Positions 14,014-31,447 of a DNA stretch of 64,000 nucleotides are shown in pieces. The position numbers were made by a program, and so were the translations under genes. Under the pieces are notes generated by a model. That model did not search any database and was not told the DNA's origin. It saw only the letters and a list, made by a program, of their open reading frames with translations. The stretch lies in the NCBI GenBank assembly GCA_022538095.1, contig JAKYXN010000028.1, positions 1-64,000 on the forward strand. Direction: 5' to 3'. Each line of letters starts with the position of its first letter. Positions within the stretch are counted from its first letter, which is position 1. Source of the stretch: Puniceicoccaceae bacterium K14. Its GTDB lineage: Bacteria; Verrucomicrobiota; Verrucomicrobiia; Opitutales; Opitutaceae.

Positions 14014-15201
14014 ATGACCTATATTGAAGATCGAAGAAAGTGGTACTCTGGACAGGGATTTTGGAAAAATGTCCCCGAGTCGAAGTGGAAAGACTGGTCC
14101 TGGCAGCTTCGAAATAGAATTACTAAGCTCGAACAATTGGAAGAACTCATCGATTTGACCGATGAAGAGCGTGATGGATGCAGTCACGCGAACAATAAAC
14201 TGGCCATGGCGATAACGCCGTACTTCTTTAATCTGATTGACCGAGAAGACCCGAACTGCCCTGTGCGCAAGCAAGTCATCCCACGCGCAGGCGAAATGGT
14301 GGTTACGACTGATGAAATGTTGGACCCAGTTGGAGAGGATTCGCATTCACCAGTTCCAGGTCTAGTACACCGTTACCCGGATCGTGTTTTGTTTTTGGTG
14401 ACTGATCGTTGTGCAGCTTATTGTCGTTATTGTACGCGGAGCCGATTGGTCAGTAATGCCCAGGATTACAACTTTAGCCCGAGTCTTGAGCAAGGTCTCG
14501 AGTATATACGAAACCACCCAGAAGTACGTGATGTGCTTTTGAGCGGAGGTGACCCGCTTTTACTATCTGATAATAAATTGGATTATTTATTAGGAGAGCT
14601 TCGAAAAATCGAGCACGTTGAATTTATTAGAATCGGCTCCCGTATTCCTGTTTTTCTGCCTCAACGCATTACGCCGTCGCTTTGTGACGTATTCAAAAAA
14701 CACGGTCCAATTTGGGTAAGCATTCATACGAATCATCCTAAAGAATGCACACAAGAAGTAAAAGATGCCTGTGAGCGTCTTTCATTTGCTGGCGTTCCTT
14801 TGGGTAATCAGTCTGTGCTTTTGAAGGATGTTAACGATGATGCTGATGTCATGAAAGCTCTGGTACATCGTCTTGTGCGAATGCGTGTGCGACCGTACTA
14901 TATCTATCAGTGCGATTTGATTACGGGCAGCTCACACCTGAGAGCTGATTTGCGGAAAGGCATTGAAATTATGCGAGAGCTTCGTGGCCACACGACAGGG
15001 TACGCTGTTCCTCAATTCGTTATAGATGCTCCTAATGGTGGTGGAAAAGTGCCAATAAATCCTGAGTATATCGTAAAGATAGATGATGAGGCAATCCACT
15101 TCAAAAACTTCGAAGGCAAGCTATACCGCTACCCGCTCAAGGCCGGGGCGCCCGTAGAGGAGGCAGAAGCTCAGTTCGGTCCAGAAGAAATTGTTATGTA
15201 G
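14014..15201 (+). CDS. kamA: Lysine 2,3-aminomutase (radical SAM, KamA family)
   Basis: Radical SAM/PLP enzyme converting L-lysine to beta-lysine. It has 395 residues. The 4Fe-4S cysteines are C133, C137 and C140 (TDRCAAYCRYCTRSR). The PLP lysine is K345 in APNGGGKVPINP. Asp301 (YQCDL) and Asp338 (VIDAP) have the same spacing to the PLP lysine as the two substrate-binding aspartates known from clostridial lysine aminomutase (293, 330, 337). This argues for lysine rather than glutamate as substrate. LLSGGDPLLLSDNKL and GVPLGNQSVLLKDVND are further family blocks. No beta-lysine acetyltransferase (AblB) lies beside it, so an osmolyte role is only possible. Confidence 0.88.
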   Translation: MTYIEDRRKWYSGQGFWKNVPESKWKDWSWQLRNRITKLEQLEELIDLTDEERDGCSHANNKLAMAITPYFFNLIDREDPNCPVRKQVIPRAGEMVVTTDEMLDPVGEDSHSPVPGLVHRYPDRVLFLVTDRCAAYCRYCTRSRLVSNAQDYNFSPSLEQGLEYIRNHPEVRDVLLSGGDPLLLSDNKLDYLLGELRKIEHVEFIRIGSRIPVFLPQRITPSLCDVFKKHGPIWVSIHTNHPKECTQEVKDACERLSFAGVPLGNQSVLLKDVNDDADVMKALVHRLVRMRVRPYYIYQCDLITGSSHLRADLRKGIEIMRELRGHTTGYAVPQFVIDAPNGGGKVPINPEYIVKIDDEAIHFKNFEGKLYRYPLKAGAPVEEAEAQFGPEEIVM

Positions 15202-19143: not shown

Positions 19144-20397
19144 ATGTCTTATAGCGTTCTCGATAAAAACAACATTCCTGAATATTTAAGAGGAATTGCA
19201 AAAGTGCTCGAACTATTGGGGGACAGCAGCGACCTTATAGTCGACGAAATTGGAGATGGTAACTTGAATTTTGTTTTTCGTGCGTTTTGCAGGGATGACC
19301 CGAAAAAATCAGTTATCCTGAAGCAGTCGGTGCCCTATTTGAGAGTTGTTGGGGATGGGTGGCCTCTGGATAAGAAGCGTATCCATTTTGAAATGAGAGC
19401 TCTTGCGATTTACGGAAATTTGGTTCCTGGAAACGTGCCTGAAGTGTACCATTCTGACGAGGAAATGTGTACCTTGGTTATGGAGGATTTACGTAGTCAC
19501 AAAGTTTTGCGAAGCGGAATGATTATGAATATCAAGTATCCGAATGTTGGTCGCAGCATCGGAACACTTTTAGCAAAAACCTTGTTTGGCACTTCTTCTT
19601 TTGGAATGGGGAGCCTTGATAGGCATAAGTATATGGAACAGTTCGTTACGAATGATGAATTGTGCAAATTGACTGAAGAATTTGTTTTTACGTATCCTTT
19701 GATGGTTCATTCGTTAAACTATGTGAATCCATTAACGGAAAAATATGCTAACGAACACTTGAGGAAGGACTCAGACTATAAGCTCGGTACTCTGAAATTG
19801 AAAGAAACATTCATTTCGGACAAAAGCGCTTTGTTGCATGGTGACCTTCACACCGGTTCATTGATGGCGAATGGAGTGGATCTTCGTGTTATTGATACTG
19901 AATTTGCCTGTTTCGGTCCGCTCGGTTTTGATGTGGGAAAAATTATAGCAAATTTTCTACTTAGTTACATTTCCCATTATCAATCTCCAAATGATGAGTA
20001 CAAGGAATGGGTACTGGAAGAAACTTTCCAAATATTGAATACTTTCTCCAAAACCTTTTTAGATTTATGGGATAAGACTGAAGAGTCTGCTATGTTTACT
20101 GCCAGTTTGTTAAACAGTGAAGAGACAAAGCGCTTTAAAGAAGATTACATTCTAAAGATCCTTCGCGATTCGATTGGTTTCTGCGCTTGTTTTATAACTA
20201 GAAGAACCTTGGGGACAGCCGGCGTTGCGGACATACGAGAAATAGAGGATGTTGTATTGAGATCAAAGCTCGAAATTGTAAGTCTAAAGCTTGCGCAAAC
20301 GCTTATGAGTTCTCATGGAGATATCAATTCTATTGAGGAATTCAAAAATCTTGTGAGTGCGTTTTTCGAAAAAACAAAAAGAGAAAACAATTTTTGA
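19144..20397 (+). CDS. mtnK: 5-methylthioribose kinase-like protein (MtnK family)
   Basis: 417 residues, full length for MtnK. Family blocks appear in order: EIGDGNLNFVFRAF, ILKQSVPYLRVVGDGWPL, TLVMEDLRSHKVLRSG, the catalytic loop LLHGDLHTGSL (His232, Asp234) and the metal-binding segment VIDTEFACFGPLGFDVG (Asp251, Glu253; B. subtilis has DPEF). GFCACFITRRTLGTAGVADI follows. In methionine salvage the enzyme phosphorylates 5-methylthioribose at C1. No mtnA, mtnN or other salvage gene is in the window. Instead the gene faces arsM-arsS. Because the arsenosugar intermediate is also a 5-deoxy-5-substituted ribose made from SAM, an arsenosugar substrate is a reasonable hypothesis (inference). Confidence 0.85.
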   Translation: MSYSVLDKNNIPEYLRGIAKVLELLGDSSDLIVDEIGDGNLNFVFRAFCRDDPKKSVILKQSVPYLRVVGDGWPLDKKRIHFEMRALAIYGNLVPGNVPEVYHSDEEMCTLVMEDLRSHKVLRSGMIMNIKYPNVGRSIGTLLAKTLFGTSSFGMGSLDRHKYMEQFVTNDELCKLTEEFVFTYPLMVHSLNYVNPLTEKYANEHLRKDSDYKLGTLKLKETFISDKSALLHGDLHTGSLMANGVDLRVIDTEFACFGPLGFDVGKIIANFLLSYISHYQSPNDEYKEWVLEETFQILNTFSKTFLDLWDKTEESAMFTASLLNSEETKRFKEDYILKILRDSIGFCACFITRRTLGTAGVADIREIEDVVLRSKLEIVSLKLAQTLMSSHGDINSIEEFKNLVSAFFEKTKRENNF

Positions 20398-20460: not shown

Positions 20461-21510
20461 CTAGCAACAACTCCCTGACTCGCTTTGCTCGGAGGATTGA
20501 GGCGCGCAGTCGAATAGGCCAAAATGTTCATTCCGGTCGCCTACGACCTTAAAATGCTTGGCGAATCGTGTTTCTTGGATCATGGCGGCTGAGTTCCCAC
20601 AGACCCTGTCCGGCCTTCCTTTTTCAAAGCGATGCGAAGGATCGAGTTCGAAGATGCGAGGAGCAGAAGGAACAGAACCGCCATAGATTACAGTTTGGCC
20701 GTAGTCTTCGCACCTGTCTTCGAGCGAGTCTAGTTTGAACGCGCGGATAGTCACGGACTCAAATTGGACGCCGTCGCTGCGACGAGCCATTTCTTCGTCT
20801 TCTATATCGAGTGGACTACGGCTCATTATTCGGTAATCAGGTATATTGAGCCCAGCTAGGTGTCGTCGAAAATCTTCCCAGTACCAAGCGCCTCCGAGAC
20901 ACTCACCATGAAAGATTGGATCTTCACGCAGTTCTGTAGAAAGTCGTCGGTTTGCGAATACGTCGGAAAAATAGAGTTCCCCTCCTGGCTTGAGGACTCG
21001 AATTATCTCAGCAAGAACCTTGGACTTGTCTGGGCAGAGGTTGAGCACGCAATTTGAAATGACGATATCCACGGATTCATCTTCAATATCGAATGCTGCT
21101 AAATTTTCGAGCGGCCCTTTGGCGAAACGAATCGCAGATTCCGGTAGATCGAACTCTTTTGTTAGTTGAGGCGCGTACCGCTTTGCGACGTCTAGTTGAG
21201 AGTCAAGGAGGTCGACACCAATTACTTTTCCGTTTGGGCCAACAAACTGAGCGGCAGTAAAGACATCGCGTCCAGTCCCGCAACCGAGATCGAGTACAGT
21301 TGTGCCTTCTAGGTCTAGAGGTAGCGGAGAACCGCAGCCATAGAATTTAGCCAAAATTTCGTCTGGCAAACGAGCGTAGGCATTTTTTAGCCAATTCGGT
21401 GGAGCTTTCGCGGGACAGCAAGCCGACGTTTTGAGATCGGAACTTTGTTCGAGTACGTCACCGTAGTATTGACGAGAGTTTTCGTGATAGTCGAGGTTTT
21501 GACCTTTCAT
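20461..21510 (-). CDS. arsM: Arsenite S-adenosylmethionine methyltransferase
   Basis: Methylates As(III) with SAM and reducing thiols. From ATG 21510 the protein has 349 residues. The longer open frame overlaps arsS and lacks family sequence upstream, so I reject it. The SAM site is VLDLGCGTGRD (74-82). Arsenic-type cysteines are present: SACC (31-32), FYGCGSPLP (59) and GECLGGAWYW near 200. The extended C-terminus (VIYGGSVP, FELD..HRFEKG, VCGNSA) ending SGSCC is seen in ArsM proteins of arsenosugar clusters. In this setting the expected product is dimethylarsenic for ArsS. It lies 35 bases downstream of arsS on the same strand. Confidence 0.92.
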   Translation of the reverse strand: MKGQNLDYHENSRQYYGDVLEQSSDLKTSACCPAKAPPNWLKNAYARLPDEILAKFYGCGSPLPLDLEGTTVLDLGCGTGRDVFTAAQFVGPNGKVIGVDLLDSQLDVAKRYAPQLTKEFDLPESAIRFAKGPLENLAAFDIEDESVDIVISNCVLNLCPDKSKVLAEIIRVLKPGGELYFSDVFANRRLSTELREDPIFHGECLGGAWYWEDFRRHLAGLNIPDYRIMSRSPLDIEDEEMARRSDGVQFESVTIRAFKLDSLEDRCEDYGQTVIYGGSVPSAPRIFELDPSHRFEKGRPDRVCGNSAAMIQETRFAKHFKVVGDRNEHFGLFDCAPQSSEQSESGSCC

Positions 21511-21545: not shown

Positions 21546-22532
21546 TTAGGCAAGGGTGCCTCCGCAGCTTGAACCACAACCTGCGGTGCAACCAAAGCAA
21601 TGCTGGGCGGTTTGAATCGCTCGTTCTGCCAAGTCCTCTGGAGTGATACCCCAAAGGGAGAGCTTTTCGGTTCCGTCTTTGATGTGGAGTCGAAGCATTT
21701 GATTGAAGTCGCAGTCGTAGATTTGTCCGGTCCAATCAACACTCAGAGTGTTACGGCACATCAATCCATTGACCGTAGAGGGGTTGAACGCATTTACTAA
21801 GAGTTCCATGTATTCGTCATATTCGCCGTTGCGTCTTAGATAGGATGCGAAGCGTGAGACGGGCAGATTGGTTAGGGCGTAGAGGCGGTCGAAGCTAATA
21901 TCAAAATGCTTTTTTAATTCTCGTTTGTAGTCCTGTTCGAGCTTGCTTTGTTCTGGCGGCAACCAAGCTCCTCCGGGATTGTAGACGAGGTGCAGGGGGT
22001 GTCTGGGGTCATCGAGACCGAACCCCAGTTGATTGAGCTCTTGCAGAGCTGATATACTACGGTCGAAGACTCCATTGCCGCGTTGGGCGTTTACATTGTC
22101 TTCCGTGTAGCAGGGCATTGACGCAACGACTTCCAAGTTGCGGCTAGCTAAAAACTCGCCGACCCATTCATAACCAGGCTCATTAAGAATGACGAGGTTG
22201 CAACGGTCGATGATTTTAACCTCGGAATTGAGGCTGATTAAGCCATCTACCAGTGTTCGAAAGTGAGGGTTCATTTCTGGAGCGCCTCCAGTAAGATCGA
22301 CTATTTTGGTAGGGTGTTTCGTGAACCAATCGAGGATTTTGTAGACAGTGCTCTCTGTCATGATCTCTTTTCTCTTCGGACCTGCGTTCACGTGGCAGTG
22401 GGAACAAGTCAAATTGCAGAGTTTCCCAAGGTTGATTTGGAGTGTATCGAGAGTTTCGCGACTTAGCTCTATTTTGTGCCGAGAAAGTGTTTCGGTGAAG
22501 TCTACCTGAGCTTGGCTTTGGAAAGTTTGCAT
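21546..22532 (-). CDS. arsS: Arsenosugar biosynthesis radical SAM protein ArsS
   Basis: Radical SAM enzyme known to join the 5'-deoxyadenosyl group of SAM to dimethylarsinous acid, giving the nucleoside precursor of arsenosugars. It has 328 residues. The cluster-binding cysteines are 39, 43 and 46 (GKLCNLTCSHCHVNAGP). VDLTGGAPEMNPHF is the glycine-rich SAM loop. The C-terminal DUF3641-type region has YNPGGAWLPP and MCRNTLSVDWTG.IYDCDFNQM, and ends in a Cys-rich tail (C312, C315, C319, C323). First gene of the arsS-arsM transcript. No arsR regulator lies in the intergenic region to the divergent oxidoreductase. Confidence 0.93.
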   Translation of the reverse strand: MQTFQSQAQVDFTETLSRHKIELSRETLDTLQINLGKLCNLTCSHCHVNAGPKRKEIMTESTVYKILDWFTKHPTKIVDLTGGAPEMNPHFRTLVDGLISLNSEVKIIDRCNLVILNEPGYEWVGEFLASRNLEVVASMPCYTEDNVNAQRGNGVFDRSISALQELNQLGFGLDDPRHPLHLVYNPGGAWLPPEQSKLEQDYKRELKKHFDISFDRLYALTNLPVSRFASYLRRNGEYDEYMELLVNAFNPSTVNGLMCRNTLSVDWTGQIYDCDFNQMLRLHIKDGTEKLSLWGITPEDLAERAIQTAQHCFGCTAGCGSSCGGTLA

Positions 22533-22771
22533 TTGTAATTTGTATTCGGAAGAACGGGCAAAAGTAGATCAGGTTCAGATATGACAGCTTTTGTCCGAGG
22601 TCTTGATTGTAGAGAGCGGAGCAGGACTATTTTATTCCAGAAGAACTTACTCGGAGGATAAATTTATTACAAGTTTGGGAATAAGGAATCGCATCATAGC
22701 TCTTGTCTTCAAGACGTGTTAATGTAATCTTTTTTTTGACCGATTCAAAACGACCAGACCATTTCCCAAAT

Positions 22772-25024
22772 ATGTTACGATTGATTTCGAAATACACTCG
22801 CTGGCTACATACTGCATGGCCAGCAGGAACTGTTGAGAAGGCTCCCAAAGTCAATGATGATGGTACGACACGAGTACCCGGATTGCGAGTTGTGGGCGAT
22901 TTAACCGGCGTACCGCTGCTAAAATTTTCGGCCGACTCTGGGGCTCGATCGGTGGAGTCTATACTTCAGGAGGCAGATTTTGAGAAAGGAAAGGCCGGTT
23001 TTGACTTTGACCTTGTTATAGTAGGCGGAGGAGTCTCTGGTTTGTCAGCTGCGATTGAAGCTAAGAAGGCTGGGCTGAATTTCGTGGTGTACGAAACCTC
23101 CGCAGTTCTCTCGACAATTCGAAATTTTCCACGCGGTAAGCCCATTTTCACTTATCCGTCAGATATGACTCCGGCTGGCGAGCTTCGGTTTAACAGCTCT
23201 GTGAAGGAGGATTTGATTGATGAATTGGAAGAACAGCGGTCGTCTCACGGGATCGAGTCTGTTGAAGCAAATGTCGAAAGGGTATCCCGTGAAGGAGGTG
23301 GACTAGTCATACACCTAGCATCCGGAGACCACAAAAAAGCTCAACGAGTGATTATTGCGATCGGTAAGAGTGGAAACTACCGTAAGCTGGGCGTACCGGG
23401 CGAAGAAATGGATAAAGTGATGAATCGCTTGATCGATCCTCGCGAATTTGCTGGGCGCAAAGTTTTGGTTGCTGGCGGGGGTGATTCTGCCTTGGAAGCC
23501 GCTGTTTCCATTGCAGAAAACGGAGCATCCGTAGACCTAATCCACCGAAGGGATGCTTTTTCTCGACCGAAGCCAGATAATATCGAAGCGGTTGAAAAAC
23601 TAGCGGAAGAGGGGAAACTTAAGCTGCGCATGAGTACCTCTGTGAAGGAGATCGTTGAGAACAAGGTTCGCATAGCCAAGAAGGGCGAGGAAGATGTTGA
23701 ACTTGAGAATGATTTTGTACTCACTTTTTTAGGACGTGAGGCTCCTCTGGAATTTTTCCGCAAGTCAAATATTAGCATTACAGGGGAATTTACTGGAAAA
23801 ACGTGGAGTACTTTGGTCGGTTTCTTCATAGCCTTTACATTATTCTACCATTGGCAAAAAGGGCTCTGGTTTAGTAATATTAGCCCTGGTCATTTATCTT
23901 GGATGGTGTCGTCGGTTGGCGGGTTATTTCAGAGTGCGGTCGATAGCCCGAAAAATTTGCTCCACCATATTCGAATTGGAATGAACCAACCGGGGTTCTA
24001 CTATTCTCTAGCCTATTGCGTTTGTGTGGTGATCTTTGGATTGAGGCGTATTAAGCGACGTAAGACACCCTATGTAAAGCTGCAGACCATTACACTCGCA
24101 GTGATCCAGATCGGGCCTCTTTTTCTATTGCCTTGGATTTTGCTTCCTTGGACCGGTGCGCTTGGCTGGTGGGACTCAGGTTTTGGGGCGATGATTGGTG
24201 ATGCGTTGTGGCCGGACGGGTCTTATTGGAGGGCGTTTGGCCTTATTCTAGCATGGCCGCTTTTTGTCTATAATTGGTTTACTGCTGAACCTCTGTGGGG
24301 CTGGTTAATTTTAGGGTTTTTGCAGACTTTTGTGATTATTCCTTTCATCGTTTGGCGTTGGGGCAAGGGTGCTTATTGTGGTTGGATTTGTAGTTGCGGT
24401 GCCCTAGCGGAAACGTTGGGTGACGATCATCGTCATAAGATGCCACATGGCCCCATATGGAATCGGGTGAATATGATCGGGCAGGTATTGCTCGGAATTG
24501 CAGCGATTATGATGATTTTTCGCATAGTCGGTTGGGTGTTGCCAAACGGCAATTGGGCAGAGAATGCACTCAATGCGATGTTGAGCGGAATCCCCGTACT
24601 TAACTGGAAATACGCAGTTGATGTTTGGTTAGCTGGCGTGTTTGGGGTTGCGTTTTATTTCCATTTTTCTGGGAGAATCTGGTGTCGCTTTGCATGTCCA
24701 CTTGCGGCTTTGATGCATATTTACGCACGCTTCACTCGTTTCCGGATATTCTCAGACAAGAAAAAATGTATTTCGTGTAACGTTTGTACATCAGTTTGCC
24801 ATCAAGGTATTGATATTATGAATTTTGCCAACAAGGGGCTTCCGATGGAAGACCCTGAATGTGTGCGTTGTTCGGCTTGTGTCCAATCTTGCCCTACGGG
24901 AGTTCTTAATTTTGGACGGTATGATACTAAGGGAGTGATCAAATTCGATTCAGTTCCTGCGTCTATCGTTCAGATGGCTGAGAATGCGCGTAAAGCAGAC
25001 AATGCTAAGGCTCAAGTGAGGTAA
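22772..25024 (+). CDS. Membrane FAD/NAD(P) oxidoreductase fused to 4Fe-4S (NapH-like) module
   Basis: 751 residues from ATG 22772; a TTG at 22703 adds a poor extension. Residues 25-45 read TTRVPGLRVVGDLTGVPLL. The FAD site is VIVGGGVSGLSAAIEAKKAG (near 87) and the NAD(P) site is VAGGGDSALEAA with HRRDAFSRPKP, as in thioredoxin-reductase-like proteins. From about residue 345 it becomes a multi-pass membrane protein with Cys motifs YCGWICSCGAL and WCRFACPLAAL. It ends with two 4Fe-4S motifs, CISCNVCTSVCH and CVRCSACVQSCPTG. Likely moves electrons from NAD(P)H to a membrane or exported acceptor. Its position beside arsS suggests, but does not prove, arsenic or thiol redox chemistry. Confidence 0.8.
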   Translation: MLRLISKYTRWLHTAWPAGTVEKAPKVNDDGTTRVPGLRVVGDLTGVPLLKFSADSGARSVESILQEADFEKGKAGFDFDLVIVGGGVSGLSAAIEAKKAGLNFVVYETSAVLSTIRNFPRGKPIFTYPSDMTPAGELRFNSSVKEDLIDELEEQRSSHGIESVEANVERVSREGGGLVIHLASGDHKKAQRVIIAIGKSGNYRKLGVPGEEMDKVMNRLIDPREFAGRKVLVAGGGDSALEAAVSIAENGASVDLIHRRDAFSRPKPDNIEAVEKLAEEGKLKLRMSTSVKEIVENKVRIAKKGEEDVELENDFVLTFLGREAPLEFFRKSNISITGEFTGKTWSTLVGFFIAFTLFYHWQKGLWFSNISPGHLSWMVSSVGGLFQSAVDSPKNLLHHIRIGMNQPGFYYSLAYCVCVVIFGLRRIKRRKTPYVKLQTITLAVIQIGPLFLLPWILLPWTGALGWWDSGFGAMIGDALWPDGSYWRAFGLILAWPLFVYNWFTAEPLWGWLILGFLQTFVIIPFIVWRWGKGAYCGWICSCGALAETLGDDHRHKMPHGPIWNRVNMIGQVLLGIAAIMMIFRIVGWVLPNGNWAENALNAMLSGIPVLNWKYAVDVWLAGVFGVAFYFHFSGRIWCRFACPLAALMHIYARFTRFRIFSDKKKCISCNVCTSVCHQGIDIMNFANKGLPMEDPECVRCSACVQSCPTGVLNFGRYDTKGVIKFDSVPASIVQMAENARKADNAKAQVR

Positions 25025-25067: not shown

Positions 25068-27098
25068 CTAACTCTTACCGTAATAGAGTTGGTAGAGTCG
25101 ATGAGAAAGGTTTTGAGCTCGTTCTTCACTGAAGCTTCGTTGTATTAGGTATTTTGCAACGAGGCTTAGAACGAGTAAAATTCGAAGAGGAGCCTGCTTC
25201 TTCCATTTCCCGGGGTTTGTTTGGCTTTCTATCCCAAGGTAGCTAAGGGGACCTATTTCACGCAATCGGAGGCTAAGTTCTATGTCTTCCATTAATGGTT
25301 GGCTCGGAAAGCGTTTGTTCGGGAACTTTGAGCGATCGAAAAACTGACACTGGTCGCCAAAGGAAATGCCCCAAGTAACCGCCCTTATTTCATTCAACCA
25401 TTCTATGAGCCGATAGGGAAAAATGCCATTGGCTGAGAAGGCTTGTCCCAGCGAACCGCCGACTACGTTCGGATTTTGCTGCAAGTGCCCGATCATGGTT
25501 TGAATACTTTGAGGGCGAAGGCGGCTATCGGCGTGCACAATCAAGGCGAAACGGCTGGGCGATGCTAACAGGCCATTAAAAATTTGGGTTCCTCTGCCGC
25601 GTGGTGATGATACATTGGATACGCCTAACTTTTGAGCAATTGCGATTGTCGAATCCGTAGAGTCAGCGTCGCTCAGGATGATTTTATCATGTAGGCGTAG
25701 TTGCGGCAAGATACTTGTTAGACAGGATTTAATTGTGCTTGCAGCGTTTAGCGTGGGGACGACTACAAGAACAGAATCATCATTAGGGCAATGGTTCGAT
25801 GCTTGGCCGCTATCGCTTGGCCTTGGCTTTATAAGCCTAAGAGCGTATGGAATAGCGAATACGAAGACAGGCGTCCAGATGAGAAACGAGTGTCGGTCTA
25901 ATAAATCCCATGTTCCAGTTTCGGCGTAGTCTTTCCAAACTAAAAAGTAGAAGGCTTGAGTTAAGCAAAGTGATATCCAAAACAAAGAGGGTGCAAAGAC
26001 CAATGAAATAGCGATCCAACTCAAATACCAGAAATGTACAGTGGGCGAAAGTATAAGTAGGCTCCCGCAAATCCAAAGCCAGTGACTGTGCCAGTCGTCT
26101 CGACCTTTATGGCGTAACCAAATCCAAGCGAAACTAAACATGAAGAGGACTTGTAAAGGGCGACGAAGGTTTTCCCTGGTTAGGTCGAACAAATTGCCAA
26201 AGAGGTTGGGTAGTCCGTTGAAATCTCTTAAAGCTCCGAATTGATAAAGGCCATCGAATAGTTGGGGCAAACCAGCTGCGAACGGAAGGCACATCACGGT
26301 TGTGGTTAGAACGAAGCCAATGGCAGCTTTGATACGACCATTCCAAATTATAAATGGGAGGCCTAATAGAGCCATAAATTTCATCTGAGTTGCGATAGCA
26401 AGGCAGCAACCGACCCATAGCCACGCTTTTCGATCGATAAACACTGCAGTCGCTGCAAGTCCTACTAGCATTAATACATCGAGGTGGCCTTCGCCAGCAA
26501 TTGCTACGAGTATGACTGGATTGAACGCATAAAGAGAGACGTTTCGAAGAGGCAATCGTCGTTTCTTTAATAAGTAGAGTATTAAACAAATGACTACTAA
26601 ATCTAGAAGGGCGAAAACAATCTTAAAGGCCAACGGGGTGTATGCAATTTTTCCGATAGTCGCAAATACAAGTAACGAACCCGGTGGATAAGCGGTTAGC
26701 TTATCTTTGTTGTTCATCTTGGCCCATTGCTCATCTCGATACTGAGACAGGTCTGGGTGATCGCCTCTAAGGCTATAAGGGCTTATGCCTTCGGTGACTA
26801 ACTTGCCCTCCCAAAGATAGCGATGAATGTCATCTGAAGGTGGCGTGGGAAGCAAAGCCAGTCGCAACAACGCCGCTAAGCACAGAAGATATATGAATTC
26901 CCTATGATTCGATTTCCACTGAGGGCTAACAAAAAGGACTCCCATCATTCCTAGCCCCATGGTTCCAAAGAAAATGGTCCTTAGAAAAGTCCAATCGTCG
27001 AAATTTGGGAAGCTGAGCGCATACCCCAAAGCGCTTAGAAAACTTATCCCAGCAAAGGTACACCAGAGCGCTTGACGGCTAGAATTGACCAAGGTCAT
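25068..27098 (-). CDS. Membrane glycosyltransferase fused to TIGR04283-like arsenosugar glycosyltransferase
   Basis: 676 residues in two parts. Residues 1-430 are hydrophobic with about ten membrane segments and resemble polyprenol-linked mannosyl/hexosyltransferases (LLRLALLPTPPSDDIHRYLWEGK, YPPGSLL, NPVILVAIAGEGHLDVLMLVG). Residues 445-676 are a GT2 domain: VLVVVPTLNAASTIKSCL, LSDADSTDST, HADSRLRPQSI, WGISFGDQCQFFDR and PLMEDIELSLRLREIG. The last blocks match the family annotated as arsenosugar biosynthesis glycosyltransferase TIGR04283. The fusion suggests sugar transfer at the membrane. It follows the next gene on the same strand with a 7-base gap. Family names are from memory, not searched. 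Confidence 0.82.
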   Translation of the reverse strand: MTLVNSSRQALWCTFAGISFLSALGYALSFPNFDDWTFLRTIFFGTMGLGMMGVLFVSPQWKSNHREFIYLLCLAALLRLALLPTPPSDDIHRYLWEGKLVTEGISPYSLRGDHPDLSQYRDEQWAKMNNKDKLTAYPPGSLLVFATIGKIAYTPLAFKIVFALLDLVVICLILYLLKKRRLPLRNVSLYAFNPVILVAIAGEGHLDVLMLVGLAATAVFIDRKAWLWVGCCLAIATQMKFMALLGLPFIIWNGRIKAAIGFVLTTTVMCLPFAAGLPQLFDGLYQFGALRDFNGLPNLFGNLFDLTRENLRRPLQVLFMFSFAWIWLRHKGRDDWHSHWLWICGSLLILSPTVHFWYLSWIAISLVFAPSLFWISLCLTQAFYFLVWKDYAETGTWDLLDRHSFLIWTPVFVFAIPYALRLIKPRPSDSGQASNHCPNDDSVLVVVPTLNAASTIKSCLTSILPQLRLHDKIILSDADSTDSTIAIAQKLGVSNVSSPRGRGTQIFNGLLASPSRFALIVHADSRLRPQSIQTMIGHLQQNPNVVGGSLGQAFSANGIFPYRLIEWLNEIRAVTWGISFGDQCQFFDRSKFPNKRFPSQPLMEDIELSLRLREIGPLSYLGIESQTNPGKWKKQAPLRILLVLSLVAKYLIQRSFSEERAQNLSHRLYQLYYGKS

Positions 27099-27105
27099 CC
27101 GCTAT

Positions 27106-28599
27106 TTATGCGTTCGGACGGCGGCGTTCTTGTAATGAAGATAGGCCTACCGTGAAAAAGCCCAATGAGTAAAGAAAGAGATAAGGCGCTAGGAAAATTT
27201 TTGCAGTTGCTAGAGCGAGAATTAAACTGCCAAACGTATAAACTCCCATCGCTGATTCAATCCAAGGTAGGTTGTTCCGTTTCACGCTGTAAGATTTTTT
27301 CTGTGCCTGCCCTTTCTTAGGAGTACGTACGAAAGGTGAGTTTATACCTCTGATGGCATCTATTACAGCATGCGTGTTAGATATACTGATACCAAAGCCG
27401 GTAATCATCAAAAAAGGAAGCATTTTAAGGTTTTGCCAAACCGAACGCCCCTGCGCTGCTTGACTCACCATATAGAGACGGCTTGGGCCGATTGACGCCG
27501 TTATTAGAGGGAATAGGGCAATGAGCCACCAAAGACTTAGATTTGCTTGAGCTTGTGAGAGGCCGATAAGGATTGGCACCGACAACAGAGCAACAAGTAA
27601 CATGCAGACATGCATGCTGTATTGGGTTAGGTGAAGAGCTGCATTGAATTTGACGGCAAAGGGAAGCTTAGCCTTCAAAACTCTTGGCAGTGTCAACAAA
27701 GCCGTTTGGATTGAACCTTTAGCCCAACGAAATTGTTGGCTCTTGAAGGCTTCGTAGGTTGCAGGAATTTCAGCGGGTACGACCAGATCGTGATGAAAAT
27801 AGATTGACCAGCCTTTTAATTGTGCGCGGTAGGAAAGTTCGAGGTCTTCTGTCAGTGTAACCGCTCTCCAGCCACCGGCATCTTCGATTGTTTCTCGCCT
27901 CCAAAGGCCGGCAGTGCCATTGAAGTTCAAGAAAAGTCCATTCCACGAGCGAGCGGGTTGTTCAATAACAAAGTGGCCATCGATTCCTACTGCGACTGCC
28001 TTTGTGAGCATATTCTCGTTTCGATTTAAGTGTCCCCAGCGAGCTTGAACGAGACCGCGTTCAGGATGGTTTCTAAATTGAGCGAGGCAACGCCACAAAA
28101 AATCTTTTGGCGGTACGAAATCGGCGTCGAAGATAGCGATAAACTCGCCCTTTACTGTTTTCATACCTTCTTTCAACGCACCGGCTTTAAATCCAGATTG
28201 GTTGTCCCGGCGTAAGACTTCGACGTCGTACCCATCCTTGTGCAGTTCGTGGCAAACACGATCCACGATTGTAACGGTCTCGTCGTCGGAGTCGTCTAGT
28301 ACCTGTATGTGGTGACGGTCTTTGGGGTAGTCCATTGCGGCGACCGTCCTAATTATCCTCTCTGCAACATTAAATTCGTTGTAGATCGGGATTTGTGTGG
28401 TGATAACTGGTAGGTCTATCGCTCTATGGCCGATTTGCTTTCGAAGCCGCTTTTCGTTGAGGAGGCATTTCCAGCGTTCACTTGGCGACCTTATGCGAAA
28501 GGCTCTAACCATGTAATAGGTTTTAAACCCCCAAGACATCATCGCGATGCTGCAAATGATGTAGAGTGCAATCGATGGATAGAGAATGTAATCGCTCAT
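27106..28599 (-). CDS. Cellulose-synthase-like family 2 glycosyltransferase
   Basis: 497 residues from ATG 28599 (MSDYILYPSIALY); the upstream extension to 28677 is not family-like. N-terminal membrane segments are followed by the GT2 catalytic core: TTQIPIYNEFNVAERIIR, VLDDSDDETVTIV, KAGALKEGMK, AIFDADFVPP, the acceptor-site TEDLELSYRAQLKG and QQFRWAKGS (Q..RW). At least four membrane helices follow. This combination fits processive mannan/glucan synthase-like enzymes of the CslA or BcsA type, without a PilZ domain. It is first in a two-gene unit with the fusion protein downstream. A link to arsenosugar or arsenolipid glycosylation comes from context only. Confidence 0.82.
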   Translation of the reverse strand: MSDYILYPSIALYIICSIAMMSWGFKTYYMVRAFRIRSPSERWKCLLNEKRLRKQIGHRAIDLPVITTQIPIYNEFNVAERIIRTVAAMDYPKDRHHIQVLDDSDDETVTIVDRVCHELHKDGYDVEVLRRDNQSGFKAGALKEGMKTVKGEFIAIFDADFVPPKDFLWRCLAQFRNHPERGLVQARWGHLNRNENMLTKAVAVGIDGHFVIEQPARSWNGLFLNFNGTAGLWRRETIEDAGGWRAVTLTEDLELSYRAQLKGWSIYFHHDLVVPAEIPATYEAFKSQQFRWAKGSIQTALLTLPRVLKAKLPFAVKFNAALHLTQYSMHVCMLLVALLSVPILIGLSQAQANLSLWWLIALFPLITASIGPSRLYMVSQAAQGRSVWQNLKMLPFLMITGFGISISNTHAVIDAIRGINSPFVRTPKKGQAQKKSYSVKRNNLPWIESAMGVYTFGSLILALATAKIFLAPYLFLYSLGFFTVGLSSLQERRRPNA

Positions 28600-28649
28600 A
28601 TGGAAAGTGGAAGTTGTATGATTTCCTGCGACGTATAAACGCAAAAGTA

Positions 28650-28674
28650 CCCTCCGGTGAAATTCACAGGAGGG
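28650..28674 (-). terminator. Hairpin terminator after the outer-membrane barrel gene
   Basis: CCCTCC-g-GTGA (28650-28660) pairs with TCAC-a-GGAGGG (28664-28674) around AAT. It lies 24 bases past the stop of the minus-strand gene at 28698 and is followed, in that direction, by TACTTTTGC. A good intrinsic terminator. Confidence 0.7.
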
Positions 28675-28697
28675 CAATGGCTTGAAATTTAGTCAAT

Positions 28698-29854: not shown

Positions 29855-30622
29855 CTATTGCGTATTGAGTTTCCAATCATAAAAGAGGTAATTTACGGTC
29901 CAATCTTGGACACTTGTTTCTAAAGATGTCGCGGTTTGCCTGTTAACGTAGGGAATTGCGAATTTGAGTACCGCTTCCTTGGATCCGCCGAAGTCTGCTT
30001 CGAACCATTCTAGGATCTTGGATAACTGGGCTATCTTATTTTTAGGATCGAAGAAGTTTCGTTTACTGAAGAACCACCGTCCTTGGGATTCGAGTTGATG
30101 CTCGAGCTTATCAGCCGTGTATGCCTCATTGCGGAGAACGGGGCATGAAATGGCAGCACAAACAATTGCAAAGTGGATTCGCGGCTCATTGAATTCTTTT
30201 CGAAGAATTTCGTGTTCGATATGGTCGAGACTGTAAACATTACCTCCCAGGTCGGCGAATTCAATTTTCCATGGTTTGCCGTCATCTATAGACTTTGCCA
30301 CTTTACCGAGACCGTCGATAAGACGGATACTTTGAGTAGGATAGGCTAAGGCTACCAGTTTCAAGGTATAGGCGTTATAAGCGTTTATGTAGAAGGCTAG
30401 TTTTTCTTGTTCGCTACCGAGGTTGTCTAGGTCGGCAGCGGCAAGGGAGTCGAGGTATGTGTCGATTCGGCTGTCCTTGGCTATTGCGGCATAATCCGCC
30501 AAGCCTTGCTTAACATGGTCGCTTAGTACGGCGTCGAATAGGCTATGATCGAAAGAAGCACTGACTAAAGTAGACGCGTATGCAGCAAGTAGTAAGGTGA
30601 GTTTTTTGATGGTTTTTATCAT
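29855..30622 (-). CDS. DUF547-domain exported protein
   Basis: 255 residues with a signal peptide (KLTLLLAAYASTLVSA). The family blocks of DUF547 are present: KLAFYINAYNAYTLKLV, GGNVYSLDHIEHEILR, EPRIHFAIVCAAISCPVLRNEAYTA and LEWFEADFGG. The family is thought to be papain/transglutaminase-like, and the conserved Cys-containing stretch (CAAISCP) and His (RIHFAIV, LDHIEHE) fit a hydrolase or thiol enzyme, but no activity is established to my knowledge. It is the last gene of a unit with the TIGR04282-like transferase and ends at a terminator. DUF547 genes often sit near arsS-type clusters (my recollection, unverified). Confidence 0.85.
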   Translation of the reverse strand: MIKTIKKLTLLLAAYASTLVSASFDHSLFDAVLSDHVKQGLADYAAIAKDSRIDTYLDSLAAADLDNLGSEQEKLAFYINAYNAYTLKLVALAYPTQSIRLIDGLGKVAKSIDDGKPWKIEFADLGGNVYSLDHIEHEILRKEFNEPRIHFAIVCAAISCPVLRNEAYTADKLEHQLESQGRWFFSKRNFFDPKNKIAQLSKILEWFEADFGGSKEAVLKFAIPYVNRQTATSLETSVQDWTVNYLFYDWKLNTQ

Positions 30623-30730: not shown

Positions 30731-31447
30731 CTATTTAGAATCTAGACCTGAAAACTGTTTTCGGGCTAATTCCCATTCGGTGGAAGTATCGACATCGTGC
30801 ATCTCAGGAAGCTTTTCGACACTAAGGTTTAGAGTATCCGCTTTTTCCAACGTTTGCGTTAGGACTAGGTCGGTACTCCAAGAAATGTTTTCAAAGAGTG
30901 TGCGGTGCCAATTTTTGATTCCAAGAAGGTAGTACCCTCCGTCGTAGGTTGGGCCGACAACCATATCGGATGACTCAAGTCCTTTTACTGCTAATTCAAA
31001 AATTTCGTGATTGAGCCAGGGGCAGTCAGCCCCGAGAAGAAACAATTGAGATTCTGAATCTTCGAAATGCGTTTTTACCGCAGCTGACAAACGTGCGCCT
31101 AAGTCACCCTCGGCTTGTGGGCGGAACGTGTGTTGCTTACCTAACCAGGCTTGCATTTCTGTTAAAGCATCACGCGGAGTAAAATAGATCTCGGTTGCCC
31201 AATTGGATGGAATCTCTATTAGCTGGCGCTCAGCCATTTTGCGATAGGCGTCCAAGGCCTTTTCTTCTCCGATCGTTTTTGCTAGTCGCGTTTTTATCGT
31301 TCCTTTTCGAGGTGCTTTAAGGAATGCAATCGCGGTAATTGTGGAGATCTTTTTTAATGAATGACCCATCGGTAATGATTCTTGCCGTAAGGGTGACCCA
31401 TTGGCTCCTCCAGCTTCTATAGTCGGATTTGAAGAGACTGATTTCAT
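30731..31447 (-). CDS. TIGR04282-like arsenosugar biosynthesis glycosyltransferase
   Basis: 238 residues with a GT-A/nucleotidyltransferase-type fold. Motifs are IAFLKAPRKGTIKTRLAK, LLGADCPWLNHEIFELA, VVGPTYDGGYYLLGIKNW, ISWSTDLVLTQTLEKA and MHDVDTSTEWELA. They match the family annotated as arsenosugar biosynthesis glycosyltransferase TIGR04282 (related to DUF2064/CofC-like proteins). About 30 residues before the core are low-conservation, and a later ATG (MGHSLKK) is an alternative start. The annotated start overlaps the TPR gene stop by ATGA, so coupled translation from 31447 is preferred. With the TIGR04283 fusion it provides the usual pair of transferases of arsenosugar clusters. Confidence 0.85.
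   Translation of the reverse strand: MKSVSSNPTIEAGGANGSPLRQESLPMGHSLKKISTITAIAFLKAPRKGTIKTRLAKTIGEEKALDAYRKMAERQLIEIPSNWATEIYFTPRDALTEMQAWLGKQHTFRPQAEGDLGARLSAAVKTHFEDSESQLFLLGADCPWLNHEIFELAVKGLESSDMVVGPTYDGGYYLLGIKNWHRTLFENISWSTDLVLTQTLEKADTLNLSVEKLPEMHDVDTSTEWELARKQFSGLDSK

Follow-up and report, generated by a model that had tools for sequence, protein, structure and literature searches.

An MtnK-like kinase beside arsenosugar genes in Puniceicoccaceae bacterium K14 belongs to a derived clade with a probable role outside methionine salvage

To our knowledge, the steps that lead from the product of the radical SAM protein ArsS to arsenosugars are not established, and no paper on the arsenosugar pathway was recognised in the literature searched, which was judged partly from titles. 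For the kinase family considered here, the portions of one report used by us describe contacts of 5-methylthioribose (MTR) with D238, F258 and R365 of A. thaliana MtnK, a role for the W-loop, and a lysine or glutamate three residues before the RR motif (the RR-3 position) in all MTR kinases then known; it also lists numerous MTR analogues, bulky at the 5-position, as MtnK substrates and/or inhibitors (PMC2194712). A related kinase, DrdK, acts on both 5-deoxyribose and MTR, and the part of its description available to us draws a phosphorylase and a nucleosidase-plus-kinase pair as alternatives in 5'-deoxyadenosine salvage (PMC6079011). Here we compare these systems with an MtnK-like kinase from Puniceicoccaceae bacterium K14, for which the original prediction had proposed 5-deoxy-5-dimethylarsinoyl-ribose as a substrate. 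The window is the whole stretch of DNA that was analysed, 64,000 nucleotides long.

The kinase gene (P0001; 19144..20397, + strand) is an open frame of 417 aa without internal stop, and the reverse strand of the same interval has many stops. Its product scores 427.4 bits with TIGR01767 (S-methyl-5-thioribose kinase; curated cut-off 275) over positions 1–400 of the 401-position profile, and its PDB relatives are 2pyw (1.8e-79) and the methylthioribose kinase 2olc (5.5e-70). The catalytic set consists of HGDLHTGS (H232, G233, D234), D251-T-E253-F254, K60, W73 in the W-loop and the RR pair R353–R354, in agreement with the full MtnK motif set first claimed for the protein. A search of the genome with P0001 found one copy. 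An AlphaFold model made from a seven-sequence clade alignment had a pLDDT of 66.7, with values below 50 at residues 219–255 and 357–366 around the active site, and was left unused; promoter and terminator scans returned fewer sites than in shuffled sequence.

The genome (5.72 Mb, 97.4% complete) gave no match to mtnA (TIGR00512), and the same search, run as a control, gave matches in 9 of 14 genomes, 8 of them above the cut-off. The idea that this kinase works apart from an MtnA pathway thus survived the search of the rest of the genome. The accompanying statement that no salvage gene lies nearby also held, in that MtnK itself was the sole salvage family among the 19 window proteins scanned (spanning ~11.4 to 41.2 kb); for the other neighbours in this interval, beyond the arsenosugar genes described below, neither a salvage family nor an arsenic family was recognised. 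MtnK above the cut-off was present in 2 of 288 genomes of a phylum sample, this one (G000) and G008. The G008 locus has an MtnA homologue ~1.2 kb downstream of MtnK (an ORF that matches MtnA stretches of other loci), with an ORF read as RuBisCO-like beyond it. Besides G000, five genomes of an order sample of 372 had a strong kinase match (38–42% identical), and mtnA lay next door in all three whose neighbourhood was read. Other sampled genomes of the same family yielded no strong MtnK match. Ordinary methionine salvage was discounted for P0001 on the absent mtnA match together with its position in the MtnK tree.

A scan of genome contigs with P0001 alone as query gave no match; with a seven-sequence MtnK alignment, the best 80 of 578 confirmed relatives were taken for analysis. 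The resulting tree holds 86 proteins. A C-terminal MtnK fragment with a 168-aa frame (L004, G235:C132:36202-36615), whose genome has ArsS on another contig and is one of the 45 ArsS genomes surveyed below, was left out. In the tree, P0001 and six relatives (L040–L045) form a clade with UFboot 100 and SH-aLRT 100, nested in a group of 19 rows (100/100); the remaining 12 of these, 11 from Campylobacterota and 1 from Verrucomicrobia, all lie beside mtnA. The 23 unlabelled rows are those in which mtnA was not found in the stretch examined, in some because contigs end. Branching inside the seven-member clade is weakly supported (P0001 with L040, 95/36). The relatives, 49–51% identical to P0001 in the best segment, were found in MAGs assigned to Thiotrichales, Acidimicrobiales (four) and Roseovarius. 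Among 395 genomes of the class to which one relative belongs, 2 reached clade-level scores (764–778 bits), and nine others scored 250–299 bits and were provisionally taken for ordinary MtnKs.

Within the best 80 of 578 MtnK loci, mtnA occurred in the stretch examined in 53 of the 74 loci outside the clade and in none of the six clade relatives. The genomes of two relatives (completeness not given) have mtnA elsewhere, and for these a salvage role is possible. ArsS was absent from the examined stretch of all of the best 80 of 578 loci, and no ArsS above the cut-off was found in the six relatives' genomes (completeness again not given). The phylogenetic part of the original prediction was therefore supported in one half only: the kinase belongs to a fully supported clade apart from mtnA-adjacent MtnKs rather than grouping with ordinary ones, but arsS does not define this clade, ArsS having been found neither near the kinase in the six relatives nor above the cut-off in their genomes. 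A clade of arsS-linked MtnKs was set aside, since no member was seen among the best 80 of 578 MtnK loci, 45 ArsS loci and the six relatives' genomes.

The six relatives share a gene order of phosphatase, MtnK-like kinase and nucleotidyltransferase (for example L044:9059-11955), in MAGs of Pseudomonadota and Actinomycetota. By Pfam, the partner genes of L040 and L044 encode Inositol_P (PF00459) and NTP_transferase (PF00483) proteins. When the L044 partners were used as queries, they matched 6 of the best 80 MtnK loci, L044 included, and these were exactly L040–L045, with 63–67% identity for the phosphatase and 59–76% for the nucleotidyltransferase over the aligned pieces (two pieces in L041). 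Glycosyltransferases lie near the operon in L040, L041, L044 and L045 by Pfam, and in L042 and L043 by similarity to these. Beside the kinases of the six relatives, neither an isomerase nor an aldolase was recognised. The operon thus appears to be specific to the clade, on the evidence of six loci, and no publication linking a branch of MtnK to such partner genes was recognised among the titles searched. P0001 shares the kinase clade and lacks the flanking genes: neither L044 query matched in the window, and the homologues elsewhere in the genome are distant (nucleotidyltransferase 34% identical over 123 residues, phosphatase 32%).

Active-site residues were compared across the 86 sequences, namely P0001, its six relatives and 79 other MtnKs, 56 of these mtnA-adjacent. 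The equivalents of A. thaliana D238, F258 and R365 are kept as D234, F254 and R353, and the W-loop tryptophan W73 is kept too, so that P0001 retains the residues for ATP, metal and the sugar hydroxyls, as far as their roles are assigned in the portions of the MtnK report used here (PMC2194712). The RR-3 position has changed. It is K or E in 76 of the 79 other MtnKs (the remainder being V twice and S once, all three mtnA-adjacent), S in all six clade relatives and F350 in P0001. The position capping the methylthio group holds V370 in the A. thaliana enzyme, L345 in that of B. subtilis and I or L in the six relatives; in P0001 it holds T358, and threonine at this position is found in P0001 alone among the 86 sequences. 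By contrast, the DTEF segment, read in the original prediction as a hint of changed substrate use because MtnK has DPEF, proved uninformative alone. A DxE segment without proline is common to the seven-member clade and is also seen in 7 of the 56 mtnA-adjacent MtnKs (T, A or S), two of them with T, and DTEF was dropped as a lone sign of altered substrate. Loss of K/E before the RR motif is the clearer mark.

The kinase is real, intact and other than a standard salvage MtnK. Taken together, the clade, the operon of the relatives and the residue changes lead us to favour, with somewhat better than even confidence, the view that P0001 uses ATP to phosphorylate a sugar at the anomeric (C1) position and comes from a derived MtnK clade with a probable role outside salvage, the product in this clade likely feeding a nucleotidyltransferase. 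Because the residues for O1, O2 and O3 of MTR and the ATP/metal site are kept, the sugar bound is likely still a 5-substituted or 5-modified alpha-ribofuranose, of which the enzyme would make the 1-phosphate. In the clade, the sugar 1-phosphate would most likely pass to the adjacent NTP_transferase and give an NDP-sugar for a glycosyltransferase, and the Inositol_P phosphatase may supply the free sugar or take off a second phosphate. The present copy, probably a horizontal acquisition, lies without its clade partners and adjoins arsenosugar genes. Counting against this explanation, the genome has only distant homologues of the partners and the P0001 gene lies outside a polysaccharide locus, although glycosyltransferases of the arsenosugar set are 5 kb off. 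The clade also comprises just seven sequences, and at RR-3 one of the 56 mtnA-adjacent MtnKs likewise has S and two have V. Given the phosphatase and the nucleotidyltransferase that accompany this branch of MtnK, 'methionine salvage' may be the wrong label where its genes have been annotated automatically.

The arsenosugar genes begin 63 bp beyond the kinase. An arsM-like arsenite methyltransferase gene (20461..21510, − strand, start chosen at an internal ATG) converges with it, as had been claimed, the kinase having its last base at 20397 and the arsM frame ending at 20461 on the opposite strand. The best matches of the arsM-like protein are NF008823 (166 bits) and the arsenosugar ArsM family NF038099 (117 bits), both below cut-offs. 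Next comes arsS, the arsenosugar biosynthesis radical SAM gene (21546..22532, −; TIGR04167, 440.5 bits, cut-off 300). Further along are a GT87-type domain fused to a TIGR04283-like glycosyltransferase domain (25068..27098, −; TIGR04283 at 130 bits, below the cut-off of 182), a GT2-family glycosyltransferase (27106..28677, −; similar genes in 6 of 45 ArsS loci elsewhere), a 275-aa protein without Pfam match, a DUF547 protein (29855..30622, −; PF04784, 16 of 45 loci) and a TIGR04282/DUF2064 (CofC-like) protein, a candidate nucleotidyl- or glycosyltransferase (30731..31447, −; 182 bits, cut-off 134, 20 of 45 loci). A fusion of a thioredoxin-reductase-like flavoprotein with a NapH-like ferredoxin domain (22703..25024, +; 9 of 45 loci) is possibly also a member of the cluster.

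ArsS neighbourhoods elsewhere were then surveyed. ArsS was above the cut-off in 18 of 288 genomes of the phylum sample and reached E 1e-60 in 35 of 372 of the order sample, G000 belonging to both sets; without it the two sets combine to 45 genomes, all of whose neighbourhoods were examined, some cut by contig ends. Cluster genes were counted by tblastn (1e-10) with window proteins as queries and the L025 protein as phosphorylase query, counts that miss divergent copies such as the DUF2064 protein of L022. An MTAP-type phosphorylase was found in 7 of the 45 loci (L019, L023, L025, L133, L134, L140 and L164), and in all seven it adjoins TIGR04282 on the same strand with 3–45 bp between match ends. 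The L025 phosphorylase belongs to PF01048, for the L025 and L023 copies TIGR01694 is the nearest family, with scores under its cut-off, and the other five were recognised by similarity to the L025 copy. Of 51 plasmid records with ArsS, 46 of them from Burkholderia, six were read, and three of these six have MTAP together with TIGR04282 and TIGR04283. On the B. glumae plasmid NZ_CP023207 an annotated MTAP adjoins TIGR04283, with TIGR04282 also there; on the A. portensis plasmid mtnP lies ~2 kb away from TIGR04282 and on the opposite strand; and an unannotated Cupriavidus plasmid has an MTAP-like match adjoining TIGR04282. The plasmid and chromosomal phosphorylases are ~27–29% identical, which therefore looks like repeated recruitment. 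During the survey we also noted an ArsS homologue with one in-frame TGA (G493:C39:6412-7371), consistent with a selenoprotein form.

This comparison suggests a testable order of steps, in which base removal to a ribose 1-phosphate (by a phosphorylase, or by a nucleosidase plus kinase) is followed by TIGR04282 and a glycosyltransferase. The best of the alternatives is that the kinase has been recruited to arsenosugar synthesis in place of an MTAP-type phosphorylase and, after base removal from the ArsS nucleoside, makes 5-deoxy-5-dimethylarsinoyl-ribose 1-phosphate for the TIGR04282 protein and the TIGR04283-like transferase. TIGR04282 and MtnK both occur in the cluster described here, the L025 phosphorylase query matched nothing in the window, and phosphorylase and MtnK would yield the same kind of product, a 5-substituted ribose 1-phosphate; the bulky 5-groups of analogues reported as MtnK substrates and/or inhibitors, the phosphorylase and kinase alternatives of 5'-deoxyadenosine salvage and T358 at the methylthio cap are all in keeping with such a role. 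Against it, MtnK is not a recurrent neighbour of arsS, being present in 0 of 45 other ArsS neighbourhoods and 0 of 6 plasmid loci, and the similar clusters L014, L150, L151 and L157–L159 have neither MtnK nor a phosphorylase in the stretch read. The genome's three PNP_UDP_1 proteins are a DeoD, an AMP nucleosidase and a divergent MTAP-like protein, with no MtnN-type nucleosidase among them; the free sugar would therefore be without an obvious source, and the 1-phosphate could arise without the kinase. The convergent arrangement places the kinase outside a single operon with arsM, and a convergent neighbour is weak evidence for shared function. The kinase gene also has a GC content of 39.1%, against 49–50% in arsM and arsS and a mean of 45.8% (sd 2.2) for 1254-bp windows, which suggests an arrival separate from arsM-arsS, and the gene was probably acquired horizontally. 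The original prediction is, as a whole, supported in part: arsenosugar use is plausible but unproven, fits the chemistry of neighbouring clusters, draws on a single genome and in our judgement is unlikely to be the role of the kinase. The fuller scenario, in which a kinase of a nucleotide-sugar clade replaced the phosphorylase and arsenoribose 1-phosphate passes through TIGR04282 to NDP-arsenoribose and a glycosyltransferase, we hold to be distinctly doubtful; if true, it would account for the activation step that is missing on the way from the ArsS product to arsenosugars. Separately, the divergent MTAP-like gene of this genome (L155:9365-10384, contig C110; TIGR01694 at 69 bits, cut-off 275) adjoins a gene read as epimerase-like and may encode a base-removing enzyme.

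Another role for P0001 would be detoxification, or a dead-end reaction, in which it phosphorylates the MTR or 5-deoxyribose that polyamine synthesis and radical SAM enzymes leave as by-products. It would sit well with the full MtnK score, with the activity of DrdK on both sugars in the portion of its description seen (PMC6079011), and with two radical SAM genes nearby, arsS and a lysine 2,3-aminomutase homologue (14014-15201; 510.9 bits, just under the equivalog cut-off of 525.4). This role is nonetheless improbable, given that an MtnA-type isomerase to use the product was not found in the genome, that the RR-3 residue is changed and that the relatives sit with a nucleotidyltransferase instead. 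That P0001 is a recently acquired passenger with no settled role, beside arsM by chance, would agree with a GC content in the lowest 0.6% of same-length windows (the gene's own windows included) and with the lack of strong MtnK matches in other sampled genomes of its family, but is very unlikely, as the frame is intact, the catalytic residues are conserved and the terminal branch, at 0.68, resembles that of L040 (0.55) and that of L044 (0.65).

P0001 compares with the closest known systems as follows. It shares with MtnK (TIGR01767; B. subtilis 2olc, A. thaliana 2pyw) a full-length match, the ATP/Mg site, HGD, DxEF, RR and the W-loop, and differs in the absence of an mtnA match in the genome, F rather than K/E at RR-3, a non-proline DxE, T358 and membership of a derived clade. 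Like DrdK, it is an MtnK relative, in its case probably one outside methionine salvage, for which phosphorylase and kinase are alternatives; DrdK clusters, as far as the consulted text of PMC6079011 describes them, have an isomerase and an aldolase, neither of which was recognised among the 19 window proteins, and no mtnA-type isomerase was found in the P0001 genome. With the L040–L045 operon it shares a kinase of one fully supported clade, 48–51% identical, whereas the two partner genes are missing beside P0001. Finally, the arsenosugar clusters with an MTAP-type phosphorylase and TIGR04282 (for example NZ_CP023207) have arsS, TIGR04282, a TIGR04283-type protein and DUF547 in common with the window; they carry the phosphorylase, whereas the window cluster is without it and has an MtnK-like kinase adjoining arsM.
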